In this document: one piece after another, positions 7,412-12,436 of the stretch
Layout of the letters: the number at the start of each line of letters is the position of its first letter
Numbering within the stretch: the first letter of the stretch is position 1
Origin: Sulfurospirillum deleyianum DSM 6946
GTDB lineage: Bacteria; Campylobacterota; Campylobacteria; Campylobacterales; Sulfurospirillaceae
Assembly (NCBI RefSeq): GCF_000024885.1
Contig: NC_013512.1
Coordinates: 2,170,001-2,234,000, forward strand
DNA length: 64,000 nt
Direction of reading: 5' to 3'
Notes under the pieces: generated by a model
Seen by the model: the letters and a program-made list of their open reading frames with translations, nothing else
What the model was told of the DNA's origin: nothing
Databases searched by the model: none
Translations under genes and position numbers: made by a program

Positions 7412-7513
7412 ATAAACCTCTTTACATGTAACGATATTTTTTCAGTGAGAATATTGAAGCCTTTTCAGGAATTTAAACATCATTATATGCCTAATTATAG
7501 CCTATCATGAATA

Positions 7514-7535
7514 ACAAGGGGAAATTTCCCCTTGT
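7514..7535. terminator. Perfect palindrome past the NosL operon
   Basis: An 11-bp inverted repeat with no spacer (arms ACAAGGGGAAA and TTTCCCCTTGT) lies directly after the stop of the two-domain NosL gene. It lacks a downstream U-run on the minus strand, so terminator function is likely but not certain. Confidence 0.5.
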
Positions 7536-7536
7536 C

Positions 7537-8673
7537 TTACTTATCTTGGGCGTACACTAATGCTTCGCTAATTTTATCAAAACTTAAAATTTCACTGCCT
7601 TTATGGTCTTTCAAAAAGCTCTGCGCACTTTTAAGTGTTGCAAAGGGGATAAACTCTTTGCCCATCGGTCCATAGGTATCACTTCCTATCACATAAAACG
7701 CTTTTTTGCCATCAATCGCCTCTTGGGTATAATAATCACTCACCAAAATCGTATAGGCTTCATCATTGAGTTTGGTATAGTTGCCCCATTGTGAAGGATT
7801 ATGATAAAACTTAAGCAAATCTTTCACCCCATCAAACGCATGACTCATTTTTTTACCATTTTCTTCATAACTCATACGTGCCGCCCATTTGGGGTATTTA
7901 TAAACAAACATCCCACACACAGGGCATTTTTCACTTTTTTCGACATGAATCACGCTTTTATGCGTATGATTGTGCTCTGCAAAACGCAAAATTTCCCACA
8001 AATAGAGTGAAACAGCTTGAAGCTCTTTCTCCTCAAGTTCTCCACAGGCCTGTGATTTTTTCACAAAAATCTTCAGCTCACTAATGGTATTAAAATCGTG
8101 CAAATGAATCTTCTCTTTATCACACGCTTTATGGTAAATCTTCTCGCCCATTGGGTACATACCCTTTTGCTTTTTCTTAATAAATTCATCGACATCATCA
8201 CTCAAAGAGGCTTTGGCTTTAGCAAATGCGTTCTCAAAACGCCCTAACTCTCCGCCATTTTCTTTCATAAACGCCACCGCATCCGCTTCTTTTTCAAACG
8301 CCAATTTACTCACCTGACTCATTGTGCCAGGTATTTTTGAGCCAATCACATAAAATGCCTCTTTCGCATCAATGAGCTTCTCGCTCACCACATCCGTGAC
8401 CACTACTTTCACAAGGCGCGCTTCTATGGCTTCCCAATCCGCAGCCAAACAACGAATCGAGCAGTACTGCTTGGCGGTACCATCGCTCAAAATCGCCCCG
8501 TGTGAGGTTTTATAGTATTGCTTTAGATTCATACCGCAAATGGGGCAGTAGAGCTTATCTTCCCCTTTTTGAATCAACTCTGGCTCTTTGGAAGCTACCT
8601 TACTAAACTCTTGTGCATACATCATCGTTCCTAAAAGAAGTCCTAAACAGACCATTATCCATCGTTTTACCAC
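7537..8673 (-). CDS. Two-domain NosL-like periplasmic protein
   Basis: A 378-residue exported protein with a signal peptide (about residues 1-20, ending YAQ). It carries two NosL-type metal-binding modules with CPICGM at 43-48 and CPVCGM at 250-255. Each is followed by an AFYVIGS segment and a GxM motif. NosL proteins bind Cu(I) for nitrous oxide reductase maturation; here no nosZ is in view. The linker (about 155-235), with GEKIYHKACDKEK and a QAVSLYLWEI helix, looks like a cytochrome c fold that has no CxxCH haem site. It is the last gene of the operon, 26 bases behind the preceding gene, with a TTACATGTAA in the gap. Copper handling is inferred. Confidence 0.82.
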   Translation of the reverse strand: MVKRWIMVCLGLLLGTMMYAQEFSKVASKEPELIQKGEDKLYCPICGMNLKQYYKTSHGAILSDGTAKQYCSIRCLAADWEAIEARLVKVVVTDVVSEKLIDAKEAFYVIGSKIPGTMSQVSKLAFEKEADAVAFMKENGGELGRFENAFAKAKASLSDDVDEFIKKKQKGMYPMGEKIYHKACDKEKIHLHDFNTISELKIFVKKSQACGELEEKELQAVSLYLWEILRFAEHNHTHKSVIHVEKSEKCPVCGMFVYKYPKWAARMSYEENGKKMSHAFDGVKDLLKFYHNPSQWGNYTKLNDEAYTILVSDYYTQEAIDGKKAFYVIGSDTYGPMGKEFIPFATLKSAQSFLKDHKGSEILSFDKISEALVYAQDK

Positions 8674-8699
8674 TTTTTCTCCTTTTTACATGTAAAGAT

Positions 8700-9203
8700 T
8701 TAACGTCCATCCAAAAGTGCTTTTCTCACTCGTGGGTCACTCATATTTTCACCTCGAAGCATACGAAGACGCATTGCTTCAAAAGGTACAAAACCCTCTT
8801 TGACATTTTCATACGCACCAAAACCATACTGCATGGGTGTCTCATCAATGAGGGAATACCACGCTTTAAACCCATCGATATACCGTTTGGTATCACGACT
8901 AAACACCCACAGTTTTCCTCCTTCTAGGGAAATATTTTGCTCCTTTTGCCATAAAATAAAACAGCCAATATCATCAAAAAAGTGTGTTTTTCCCTCAGCC
9001 GTAATGAACTGAGCGGTATCTTTTTGACCCACCAAATACATATGACACTGCGGACACTGAATGGTATTGTCTTTAAACTCAAGAGGGTGTTGTGCTTTGT
9101 TCTTAATTTCATCTGGTTTTTGGTTGATTTTGATGTAATAGCCAAAAATCACCATCAAAGCAATCAGGGGAAAGCCAATTAAAATCAGCGTTGATTTTTT
9201 CAT
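8700..9203 (-). CDS. Membrane-anchored NosL-like protein
   Basis: A 167-residue protein with one N-terminal TM anchor (about residues 5-25) and a periplasmic domain holding CPQCHM at 50-55, a variant of the NosL CPxCGM metal site with His in place of Gly. It also has the paired phenylalanine/glycine pattern of NosL (THFFDDIGCFILWQ). A GTG at 9209 is possible, but the ATG at 9203 gives a four-base ATGA overlap with the preceding gene and is preferred. It probably shuttles or holds copper or another thiophilic ligand with its operon partners. Confidence 0.8.
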   Translation of the reverse strand: MKKSTLILIGFPLIALMVIFGYYIKINQKPDEIKNKAQHPLEFKDNTIQCPQCHMYLVGQKDTAQFITAEGKTHFFDDIGCFILWQKEQNISLEGGKLWVFSRDTKRYIDGFKAWYSLIDETPMQYGFGAYENVKEGFVPFEAMRLRMLRGENMSDPRVRKALLDGR

Positions 9204-10162
9204 AACCACACCCCGTTTTTCAGAAAATAAACCAGCGGATAGGCTCCTGTTAAAAGCAAGTAAAGCGTATTAAAAAAGAGCGAAATACGCATCGGTTTGG
9301 CATAAGGCTCAGCCCCCACAAATGCCATCACGATACCCCCTGTGCCATAAAATGTCCCTAAAAAAAGGCTTACATACATACCATATCCTACCCCATAATA
9401 CTCCCCTTGCAGCAAACAAAACGGACAGTGATGGGTAGGAAGTTCATACACATAGGTACTAAAAAAAAGAATGAGTGAAACAATGCCAAAGAGCAAAAAC
9501 AACAGATTACTAAAGAGATAAACGGCTCCATTTTTAAGGAAAAATGCCACTCCCATCAAGACAAATGAGGCGTAAAAAAGACTCAGGATCACATGTTCAT
9601 CCAAAAGAAATAAAAACGCCAAAGAAGAGTCACTCGAAGCGGAAAAAAGCGTTCCACAACAACTGACAATTTTACTGATATTTAAAGAGGTAAAAAAGGC
9701 GATTTCCAGCGCAATTTCAGCGACTAAAACGAAAAATGCCCCACAAAAAAGAGACGATTTGAGCTTCATATAAGGTTGGGTGGGAAGCGCTGTATCTTTA
9801 GAATGCATTAAGAGCCAAAAACCAAAAAGGTAGAGATTGAGTAGTTTAAAAAGCAACAAAAAGAGCCCATAATCGACCGAATTAACCACTCCAGCCGCAC
9901 ACATCGCTCCTGTAATAATACCCGAGAGAAGATCGCACGTATAAATAAAAAAGAGAAACAAAGGCACTTTAAGGCTAAAGATATACTTCACCACAATGCC
10001 TACCAAATAGGCATTTTTTTCAAGCTGATACTGCTTAGGCGTGGTCGCATCTCTATCCCACCCTCTAGCAATGTTCCATGAGAGCACAAAAGCAATGCTT
10101 CCAAAGAGAAGAAAAAGAACATCGAGCAATAAAAGGGCGATGACTTCAGGGCTTAGACTCAT
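9200..10162 (-). CDS. Multi-TM protein with CxxC motif
   Basis: A 320-residue integral membrane protein with roughly eight hydrophobic segments. It is Cys-rich: MCAAGV (around 87), a CC pair (SCCGTLF, around 168) and HHCPFCLLQ (around 246). The last motif is an exposed CxxC with flanking histidines, suited to metal binding or dithiol redox chemistry. I do not recognise a named family. It is coupled by ATGA overlaps to the ABC ATPase upstream and the NosL-like gene downstream, so it probably belongs to the same membrane complex. Confidence 0.7.
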   Translation of the reverse strand: MSLSPEVIALLLLDVLFLLFGSIAFVLSWNIARGWDRDATTPKQYQLEKNAYLVGIVVKYIFSLKVPLFLFFIYTCDLLSGIITGAMCAAGVVNSVDYGLFLLLFKLLNLYLFGFWLLMHSKDTALPTQPYMKLKSSLFCGAFFVLVAEIALEIAFFTSLNISKIVSCCGTLFSASSDSSLAFLFLLDEHVILSLFYASFVLMGVAFFLKNGAVYLFSNLLFLLFGIVSLILFFSTYVYELPTHHCPFCLLQGEYYGVGYGMYVSLFLGTFYGTGGIVMAFVGAEPYAKPMRISLFFNTLYLLLTGAYPLVYFLKNGVWL

Positions 10163-10827
10163 GCAACAATCATCCCATGTTTAATCTCAATTATACGATC
10201 AACCACCTTGGCATCAAAAAAGAGCGGATCGTGCGTGGCAATGAGCAAAGTCACACCCTCTTTTTTAAGGCTCTCAATCATCTCAAGAAATTGCAAAGAG
10301 AGTGCTTCATCCAAATTCGCCGTTGGCTCATCGGCTAAAATGAGCACAGGAGCATTCACCAACGCTCTTGCAATCGCCACACGCTGTTGTTCTCCGCCTG
10401 AAAGATAGCGCACTAACGTTTGGGCTTTATGGACTATATGACACTGCTCCATGACCGTATGCACTCTCTCCTTCAAAACCTTTGCCTCAGGATTAGTCGG
10501 GATAAGGGGAAGTAAAATATTTTCTTCAACACTTAAGCTTGGAATCAGATGAAAACGTTGAAAAATAAACCCTATTTTCTCTCGCCTCACATATGCGCTA
10601 AAAGGCTCTATCAGTTTTGAAATCGCCACATCATCGACCATCACATTGCCAGAACTTGGCTTACAAAGCCCCGCAATCAAAGAGAGAATGGTACTCTTCC
10701 CGCTTCCACTTGCACCTTTTAATACCACACACTCTCCACGTTTTACATGTAACGTGATATTTAAGAGCGCATCGATTTTTTGCGTACTCGTTTCATAGCG
10801 TTTGCAAACATTGTCTAAGCGTATCAT
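10159..10827 (-). CDS. ABC transporter ATPase, LolD/MacB type
   Basis: A 222-residue ATPase. It has Walker A GASGSGKST (around 38), Q-loop FIFQRFHLIPSLS (around 90), the signature LSGGEQQRVAIARAL (around 142) and Walker B LILADEPTANLD with catalytic Glu. The FQRFHLIP and SGGEQQRVAIARAL patterns are typical of the LolD/FtsE/MacB subclass that powers extraction or mechanotransmission rather than import. It pairs with the FtsX-like permease immediately upstream (four-base overlap). One TTACATGTAA at 10743 encodes the LHVK near residue 27. Confidence 0.92.
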   Translation of the reverse strand: MIRLDNVCKRYETSTQKIDALLNITLHVKRGECVVLKGASGSGKSTILSLIAGLCKPSSGNVMVDDVAISKLIEPFSAYVRREKIGFIFQRFHLIPSLSVEENILLPLIPTNPEAKVLKERVHTVMEQCHIVHKAQTLVRYLSGGEQQRVAIARALVNAPVLILADEPTANLDEALSLQFLEMIESLKKEGVTLLIATHDPLFFDAKVVDRIIEIKHGMIVA

Positions 10828-12005
10828 CGAAGCACCTCATCGGCATCTAGTATGGAAGCTCTCCATGAAGGAATCATGACTGAACCTATATACACAGGCA
10901 CACTGAGCAAAAAGAGGAGGATAAGCATGGGAATATTAAAGCTAAAAGGAATCTCAAAAGAGGGTTTAAGCGTCGAATACCCACTAAAAAGGGAGCGTAA
11001 AAGGGGCGCATCGAAAAAGAAAACATACGCCATTGAAAGTGCTAAAGCCAATAAAAAAGCACTAAAACAGAGTATAAAACTCTCATAAAATCGCTCTTTC
11101 AAAATATCATCCACGCTCCATCCTAGCGCTTTTAAAACGCCTATTTCTCTGCGCTCTTCACTGCTCAGTCCGCTTAATTTATCATACACTATCATTAAAA
11201 AAGTAAACGCACTCACCACAAAAAGGCTTAGAAAAAACCCGCTTTTATAATCAAAAATACTCTGGTAACTCACCCGAATATCCTCTTTGGTAATGGCACG
11301 CATATCAGGATAGAGACGGTTGATTTTTGAGACCACCGTGGCAACTTCCAAAGGATTTGAAACCCTAAGCACCACATCCGTTGCCTCCTCTTTGGGAATG
11401 CCAAAAATCTCATAAAGGCTTTTGGTAGGAAGCAGCATCATATCGTTGGCTTGCAAACTAAGCTCCGTATCAAACACCCCTGAAATCTGCACCTTTTTCC
11501 ACGTTCCAGAAGCCGTAATAAAGTTAAAAAAGTCCTCATAATGAAAAGCTTGTAAAACCTCCTTCACGCCAACACCCACCAACATACCTTCCTCTTTTTC
11601 TAAAGCTTTCACATCGTGTTCATCGACAATTTTTTGCAACCCCTCTGTATAAATGGGCGTAAAATCATCAATGCCTACCACAGAAAAATTCACCCCCGCA
11701 GGTTTGAAATAATAATACCCCCACACCCGAGGCATCACCGAACTCACCCCTTCAATGTCCAAAAGCGCTTCTACTCGACTCAAAGGCGTATTGACGACCT
11801 TCCCTGCTTGCAGACGCTGAAGCGTAATGTCAGGCAGTGTTTTTAACGTACCATTGAGTTCAGCTTTAATACCATCGGCGATAAAAAGCACCGAAGAGAG
11901 TAGAAAAATCAAAAAAGTCAGTAAGATAAACACAAAAACGCTTTTCCCTCCTTTTCTCAACAAAGAAAAGAGCGCAAATTCCAGTAAATAGACGTTAAAT
12001 TTCAT
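10824..12005 (-). CDS. ABC transporter permease, MacB/FtsX type
   Basis: A 393-residue permease with the MacB layout: one N-terminal TM (about 18-43), a large periplasmic MacB-PCD domain (about 45-250), and three C-terminal TMs of the FtsX domain. The cytoplasmic loop has the EERREIGVLKALGWS coupling helix. MacB/LolC proteins act on periplasmic or lipoprotein substrates. Its linkage to NosL-like proteins resembles in concept the NosFY ABC system that works with NosL and NosD, but the permease family is different. Confidence 0.9.
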   Translation of the reverse strand: MKFNVYLLEFALFSLLRKGGKSVFVFILLTFLIFLLSSVLFIADGIKAELNGTLKTLPDITLQRLQAGKVVNTPLSRVEALLDIEGVSSVMPRVWGYYYFKPAGVNFSVVGIDDFTPIYTEGLQKIVDEHDVKALEKEEGMLVGVGVKEVLQAFHYEDFFNFITASGTWKKVQISGVFDTELSLQANDMMLLPTKSLYEIFGIPKEEATDVVLRVSNPLEVATVVSKINRLYPDMRAITKEDIRVSYQSIFDYKSGFFLSLFVVSAFTFLMIVYDKLSGLSSEERREIGVLKALGWSVDDILKERFYESFILCFSAFLLALALSMAYVFFFDAPLLRSLFSGYSTLKPSFEIPFSFNIPMLILLFLLSVPVYIGSVMIPSWRASILDADEVLR

Positions 12006-12316
12006 GGTGCCATACTCCCTTTATCTAATGAGAGATGGGGTGCATGATGAAAAACAAAGGTCGAGGGAAAATACTCCAGCAGTTCAGGCGACTCACTAAA
12101 AATGGAAAAAACATCACTTAAACTTCGATGCCTGACATAACGTGCTTCAGAAGCGAGTGCAAGATCGGGCAAACCCACCACAGAAGTTAAAAGCGCCTTT
12201 TTTTCTAAACGCTCAACATCCAGCGTATGGGTGGCATAAAGATAAGAAACTTCCCCCACAATGCAAACCAAAACGCTGATAAAAAATCCTAACAAGAGCT
12301 GAATACTTCGTGTCAT
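12002..12316 (-). CDS. Small membrane-anchored hypothetical protein
   Basis: The first gene of the operon: 104 residues with one N-terminal TM (about 6-29) and a short extracytoplasmic tail. No Cys is present in the tail, but HH, HAPH and paired His residues occur near the C-terminus. No family recognised. The stop overlaps the permease start (ATGA), so it is translationally coupled to the ABC exporter. Its upstream region (12317-12437) carries one TTACATGTAA at 12409. Confidence 0.65.
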   Translation of the reverse strand: MTRSIQLLLGFFISVLVCIVGEVSYLYATHTLDVERLEKKALLTSVVGLPDLALASEARYVRHRSLSDVFSIFSESPELLEYFPSTFVFHHAPHLSLDKGSMAP

Positions 12317-12420
12317 TGACGCATAAATCCTTCAAAAAATGTTTGCCTTTTAAAAAACATAAGTGTAACATTTTAATCTTCATATGCAAATTTAGTGTTA
12401 AATGGGTTTTACATGTAAGC

Positions 12421-12436
12421 CTATATCGTGATATAG
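12421..12436. promoter_or_regulatory. Inverted repeat upstream of EamA gene
   Basis: CTATATC-GT-GATATAG is a 7-bp inverted repeat ending 28 bases before the EamA start codon. It could be an operator or part of the -10 region; no regulator is adjacent. Confidence 0.35.

Follow-up and report, generated by a model that had tools for sequence, protein, structure and literature searches.

The 64-kb stretch of DNA analyzed here, termed the window, corresponds to C1:2170001-2234000 of the complete host genome of 2,306,351 bp. Six open reading frames, denoted G1 to G6, occupy positions 7537-12316 of the window on the minus strand. All are intact, point in the same direction, and mostly overlap, with overlaps of 4 nt each for G1/G2, G2/G3, and G3/G4, an overlap of 10 nt for G4/G5, and a gap of 26 nt between G5 and G6, so that the six coupled genes described in the earlier note are borne out. 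An inverted repeat of terminator-like shape (7514..7535) is found directly past the G6 stop. At the opposite end, ~105 bp of upstream DNA (12317..12424, minus strand) are kept with the operon in three differing neighborhoods, those of the window, genome G014, and locus L058, and probably constitute a promoter or regulatory region together with the ribosome-binding site. Comparison with the nearest relative, G014, gives pN/pS values of 0.10-0.36 across the six genes, indicative of purifying selection on all of them. Since selection acts on every gene and the upstream DNA persists in three genomes with different outer neighbors, the operon is not a chance arrangement. A search of 5-15 kb of the window against Rfam gave no match.

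The region also contains a frequent 10-bp palindrome, TTACATGTAA, with 36 sites in the 64-kb window against 0.08 expected from shuffled sequence (for example at 7422, 8686, and 12409). Roughly two thirds of these sites fall within genes; intergenic DNA is nonetheless enriched. The element TTACATGTAAA is present 787/785 times (forward/reverse) in the host genome, 970 times in G016, 938 in G004, and 402 in G027; a few other genomes have tens to hundreds of copies, and most Campylobacterota have 0-6. The palindrome is reminiscent of highly iterated palindromes or of uptake-type signals. As a regulator site common to the upstream regions of the window operon and its paralogue in the same genome, TTACATGTAA was rejected because the palindrome is present ~790 times in the genome.

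The first three genes encode a small anchored protein and an ABC pair. G1 (12002..12316, minus strand) encodes 104 residues with a single N-terminal hydrophobic helix and matches no Pfam or NCBIfam family. Its homologues share the stretch 'VGLPDLA...RHRSLSD.F..F...PEL.EYFPS', and an alignment of 30 of them has Lys40, Asp51, Arg62, and Arg64 invariant. G1 directly precedes G2 in all 28 of the full-flank loci where it was detected. The designation of G1 as a small membrane protein stands, and the accompanying term "His-rich" is weak because just one histidine is conserved (His63, 50/54). G2 (10824..12005, minus strand; 393 residues) is a MacB/FtsX-type (type VII) ABC permease that matches FtsX (PF02687) at 44.7 bits, above the cut-off, and MacB_PCD (PF12704) at 25.6 bits, slightly under the cut-off of 27. 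Its score against TIGR02212 is 30.6 of 362 bits, and its PDB matches to LolC/MacB are weak. G3 (10159..10827, minus strand; 222 residues) is an ABC ATPase of the LolD/FtsE/MacB type, with an E-value of 3.5e-34 for PF00005 and with FtsE and LolD as best NCBIfam relatives, under the equivalog cut-offs. By these profile scores, G2 and G3 are assigned to the type VII ABC pairs of the MacB/LolCDE/FtsEX kind, far under any equivalog cut-off. The FtsX match of G2 upholds the earlier view that the permease is MacB-type and not NosY-type. None of the partners of MacAB-TolC or LolCDE, namely a MacA adaptor, TolC, or a LolC/E pair with LolA, is encoded among the six genes or their direct neighbors.

G4 (9200..10162, minus strand; 320 residues) is a membrane protein with eight transmembrane helices in an AF2 model of pLDDT 86. 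Five cysteines and one histidine (Cys88, Cys168, Cys169, His244, Cys246, and Cys249) are identical in 87 of 87 aligned sequences, as befits the Cys-rich multi-helix protein recognized earlier, and the protein carries CPFC/CPYC and CC motifs. The invariant residues fall within the loops that connect helices 2-3, 4-5, and 6-7, where the mean numbers of Lys plus Arg are 0.08, 1.27, and 0.57, compared with 1.2-3.7 in the loops of the opposite side. Because these loops are poor in basic residues, the positive-inside rule predicts that the cysteine side is periplasmic. Searches of G4 against Pfam (up to E 1), NCBIfam (up to E 0.1), and the PDB by sequence gave no match, nor did the AF2 model match the PDB or BFVD at E<=0.001. 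G4 represents a membrane family of wide occurrence and strict conservation that lacks a name, a domain model, and a solved relative.

The last two genes encode the NosL parts of the operon. G6 (7537..8673, minus strand; 378 residues) is an exported tandem NosL protein that matches PF05573 in two stretches (E 5e-52, 176 bits) and the PDB NosL chains 7og7 and 7osf. Its two NosL domains, with CPICGM and CPVCGM, each retain a CGM motif, and Met118 and Met337 are further conserved. The tandem arrangement had been recognized from the sequence; missing from that picture was the middle segment between the domains, which contains the invariant Cys184 and Cys210. G5 (8700..9209, minus strand; 169 residues) contains CPQCHM, thus a CHM motif, and the conserved Met126, with an N-terminal transmembrane helix where some homologues have a lipobox. 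G5 gives no match to the Pfam NosL family, but profile comparison pairs it with the first NosL domain of G6 (96% probability), which substantiates its description as a membrane-anchored NosL-like protein. NosL has been shown to act as a Cu(I) chaperone for the CuZ center, and its proposed Cu(I) ligands are the Cys and Met of the CxM motif together with one further invariant Met (PMC6530538). G6 and the G5 proteins of nos-type copies retain both CxM and the second invariant Met. The CxM of G5 is lost in mcc-type copies, so the expected conservation of CxxC and CxM motifs holds for G4 and G6 and fails for G5 of the mcc type.

Solitary G6 genes of the window type, apart from G1-G5, are present in several Sulfurospirillum genomes (L158 in G008, L174 in G016, and L042 in G021). 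A NosL family protein of S. multivorans, SMUL_3232, is up 31-fold in pyruvate-fermentation-adapted cells (PMC6242987). Judged by gene numbering, SMUL_3232 probably corresponds to the solitary G6 located at G008:C1:3.107 Mb.

G4 is found in 161 of 397 Campylobacterota genomes. Among GTDB genomes there are more than 500 G4 loci, and the best 80 of these, which were kept, are nearly all from Campylobacterota. G2, G3, and G4 are almost always adjacent (31/33 and 34/34) and form the fixed core of the module; the NosL parts, G5 and G6, vary in presence and position. The Arcobacter-type loci L171, L172, and L176 have G2-G3-G4 with no nearby NosL. Forty-six genomes contain G4 and neither nosZ nor an MccA of the linked type described below. 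When orphan loci are clustered by their neighbors, housekeeping genes emerge (prmC, and ftsA/ftsZ in Sulfurimonas) and no common client enzyme. Orphan copies of Sulfurimonas (L047, L082, L094, L121, L173, and others) share a site by prmC and a gene for a 160-residue membrane protein, several of them also by ftsA/ftsZ. A full six-gene set (L092) is located on a contig binned as Acidobacteria, from a dolphin oral metagenome-assembled genome, owing to either horizontal transfer or misbinning.

A second copy in the host genome reveals one association of the module. At C1:688-693 kb, G6, G2, G3, G4, and G5 directly follow mccA, mccB, mccC, mccD, ccsBA, and a Sel1-repeat gene. MccA is a heme-copper sulfite reductase. 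The host MccA is of the 4RKM type and keeps Cys399 and Cys495, which are reportedly its copper ligands (Hermann 2015). MccA is also listed as a cuproenzyme (PMC7558416). Of the 55 W. succinogenes-type mccA genes in the phylum, 54 are followed on the same strand by G4 at a distance of 9.4-13.3 kb; the remaining one lies where a contig ends, in a genome that has G4 too, so that G4 is present in 55 of 55 genomes. The window copy is not linked to mccABCD, such linkage belonging to the paralogue at C1:688 kb. Locus L164 (G016:C1:858000-876000) lacks mccA and mccB and has a truncated mccC adjacent to an IS21-like istA/istB pair, while mccD, ccsBA, and the module are retained.

A second MccA subfamily, of 46-52% identity, is found in 41 genomes, 34 of which are without G4. 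In the five loci inspected (L166-L170, of G159, G071, G067, G278, and G215), no NosL or MacB gene is near the second-subfamily mccA; the neighborhood at L166 encodes a rhodanese-like protein of 688 residues, a thioredoxin-like protein, and CcsBA. The expectation that MccA proteins of this subfamily would lack Cys399 and Cys495 was rejected, as both cysteines are present in 14 of 14 sequences examined. The module thus does not simply track the copper site.

The other association is with nitrous oxide reductase. In half of the full-flank relatives (17/34), two or more nos genes lie no farther than 10 kb away, and in L059, L060, L062, L161, and L162 the module sits between nosL and nosY. Part of the raw association between nosZ and G4 comes from mcc copies in nosZ genomes, and the figure used therefore excludes mcc genomes: G4 is present in 60 of 85 nosZ genomes (71%) compared with 46 of 257 others (18%), counts that are inflated by shared ancestry. 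The remaining 25 nosZ genomes are without G4. Taken with the mostly G4-free second MccA subfamily, these genomes imply that copper can be supplied in several ways, of which the module is no more than one.

The phylogeny of G4 places the window copy with three other orphan copies (100/100) within a Sulfurospirillum clade of 16 rows that mixes nos-embedded and orphan copies. The mcc copies form one separate clade. The closest copies beyond the small clade of the window are embedded in nos clusters. Status as nos-embedded or orphan changes at least 16 times on the tree, a figure to be read as an upper guide since some orphan labels come from contigs too short to reveal a nos cluster. In G019, an identical G4 is found in a nos cluster and at an orphan site, so that duplication between the two settings is recent there. 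The absence of nosZ and nosD from the window, as observed earlier, extends to the complete host genome, where nosZ (TIGR04246) and nosD (PF05048) are not detected, although nosZ is beside relatives of the module. Consequently, no link to nosZ exists elsewhere in the same genome. P19 (PF10634) and multicopper oxidase (C-terminal domain) are likewise not detected in the complete genome, which does encode MccA as well as a single member of the COX1 family, presumably CcoN from a cbb3 oxidase. Given its place in the mixed clade, the window copy is a module of the nos type whose host genome lacks nosZ, nosD, P19, and multicopper oxidase. The proposal that the gene set is independent of nos does not hold, with the closest copies in nos clusters and 17 of 34 relatives near nos genes; the lack of nosZ is a trait of this genome and not of the module.

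The gene content, linkage, and conservation described above point to an ABC-driven machine for copper supply or metal-center assembly that would serve periplasmic anaerobic reductases, with paralogues serving MccA and NosZ, a reading given a probability of roughly two in three. Of the earlier suggestions of copper extraction or loading, a copper-supply role fits best, and nos-type G5 and G6 keep CxM. Copper as the cargo, the division of labor, and the client of the window copy are inferred. In this scheme, the soluble tandem NosL protein G6 and the membrane-anchored G5 would bind Cu(I) and pass it on. The cluster of five cysteines and one histidine in G4, predicted at the outer face of the inner membrane, would take or hold Cu(I) or else keep the thiols of its partners reduced. 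The MacB-type pair G2/G3, aided by G1, may then use an ATP-driven conformational change for metal release or insertion into the apo-reductase, a job likened to that of NosDFY for nitrous oxide reductase. The mcc copy would serve MccA, and the nos-embedded copies NosZ. The window copy, adjoined by no copper enzyme, derives from the nos-type branch and would now act without nosZ; its possible clients are MccA, cbb3 oxidase, or a general pool of Cu(I) in the periplasm. A bolder and tentative version, held at somewhat less than even odds, is that G2-G3-G4 form the core of an undescribed ABC-powered metal-center assembly machine in which the new 8-TM family, with its periplasmic Cys/His cluster, is catalytic and NosL proteins are exchangeable partners for delivery. 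On this view, one and the same machine would have been adopted for MccA and NosZ, two unrelated copper enzymes at the least, and for other clients, that of the window copy included.

The cysteines of G4 could instead belong to thiol chemistry. In such a module for thiol reduction or for cytochrome c/heme maturation, the Cys pairs of G4 would be an electron or thiol carrier energized or gated by the ABC pair. MccA and the NosZ of Campylobacterota both have c-type heme, that of the S. cavolei type in a heme c domain (PMC4794192), and in mcc loci the gene for CcsBA comes after mccD and before the module; moreover, G4 has CPFC/CPYC and CC, and the Arcobacter-type loci need no NosL. However, the NosL family of G5 and G6 consists of copper chaperones in the characterized case, the second MccA subfamily has CcsBA without the module, and 236 of 397 genomes of this cytochrome-rich phylum are without G4, which makes a heme or thiol role unlikely.

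Copper detoxification, with the ABC pair pumping Cu(I) outward and the NosL-like proteins buffering periplasmic copper, would suit the copper-binding motifs and the orphan copies in the 46 genomes without nosZ or linked-type MccA. It is less probable still, as the module is linked to clusters of respiratory cuproenzymes and not to copA, RND, or multicopper oxidase genes, neither a MacA-like adaptor nor a TolC-like protein is encoded in the operon, and no multicopper oxidase match exists in the genome. A copy of nos-type ancestry in a genome devoid of nosZ and nosD would also be expected if the window operon were a functionless remnant of a nos cluster that has been lost. Against this stand the purifying selection acting on each of the six genes (pN/pS 0.10-0.36), the upstream 105 bp kept in three different neighborhoods, and the retention of every invariant cysteine, which leave it the most improbable of the three.

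The copper-supply reading matters because the entry of copper into MccA and into NosZ, which removes the greenhouse gas N2O, is only partly understood, and a module tied to both enzymes provides named genes for testing copper insertion. W. succinogenes, where both respirations were studied, presumably carries an mcc-linked copy.

Several known systems resemble the module in part. With the type VII ABC systems MacB, LolCDE, and FtsEX it shares the fold family of G2 and G3, but these proteins miss the equivalog cut-offs by far and have NosL and G4 as operon partners. In the P19/FetMP iron uptake cluster of Campylobacter, too, ABC genes of the MacB type accompany those for Cys proteins and for a metal-binding protein of the periplasm; the P19 family PF10634, however, is absent from the host genome, with NosL in its place. 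The gene for SirA, the MccA homologue of Shewanella, has nosL and nosY after it (PMC5955497), so that a NosL-plus-ABC set of another type occupies the corresponding place. This sir cluster (SO_0485-0488) resembles the module in having such a set beside an MccA-type sulfite reductase with no nosZ named adjacent (PMC5955497), but its permease is NosY-type and no G4-like gene is named, whereas the module combines a MacB-type permease with G4. The nos cluster of S. cavolei contains an unexplained "five-gene insertion" (PMC4794192), which is most likely the same module, with nosL and nosY on either side of the ABC permease and ATPase genes. It was described solely as an insertion, with no function and no tie to mcc or orphan copies (PMC4794192). 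The gene set is real and conserved, and largely undescribed in the open literature. With the NosDFY-NosL machinery of nitrous oxide reductase assembly it shares the NosL copper chaperone and an ABC pair, and nos clusters house the nos-type copies. The module differs in its FtsX/MacB-type permease, its extra 8-TM Cys protein and G1, and its lack of NosD; it also occurs beside mcc and as an orphan, and often alongside NosF-NosY in the same cluster. It is best filed with the NosL-plus-ABC systems of copper-center assembly, as a member built around a new membrane protein.
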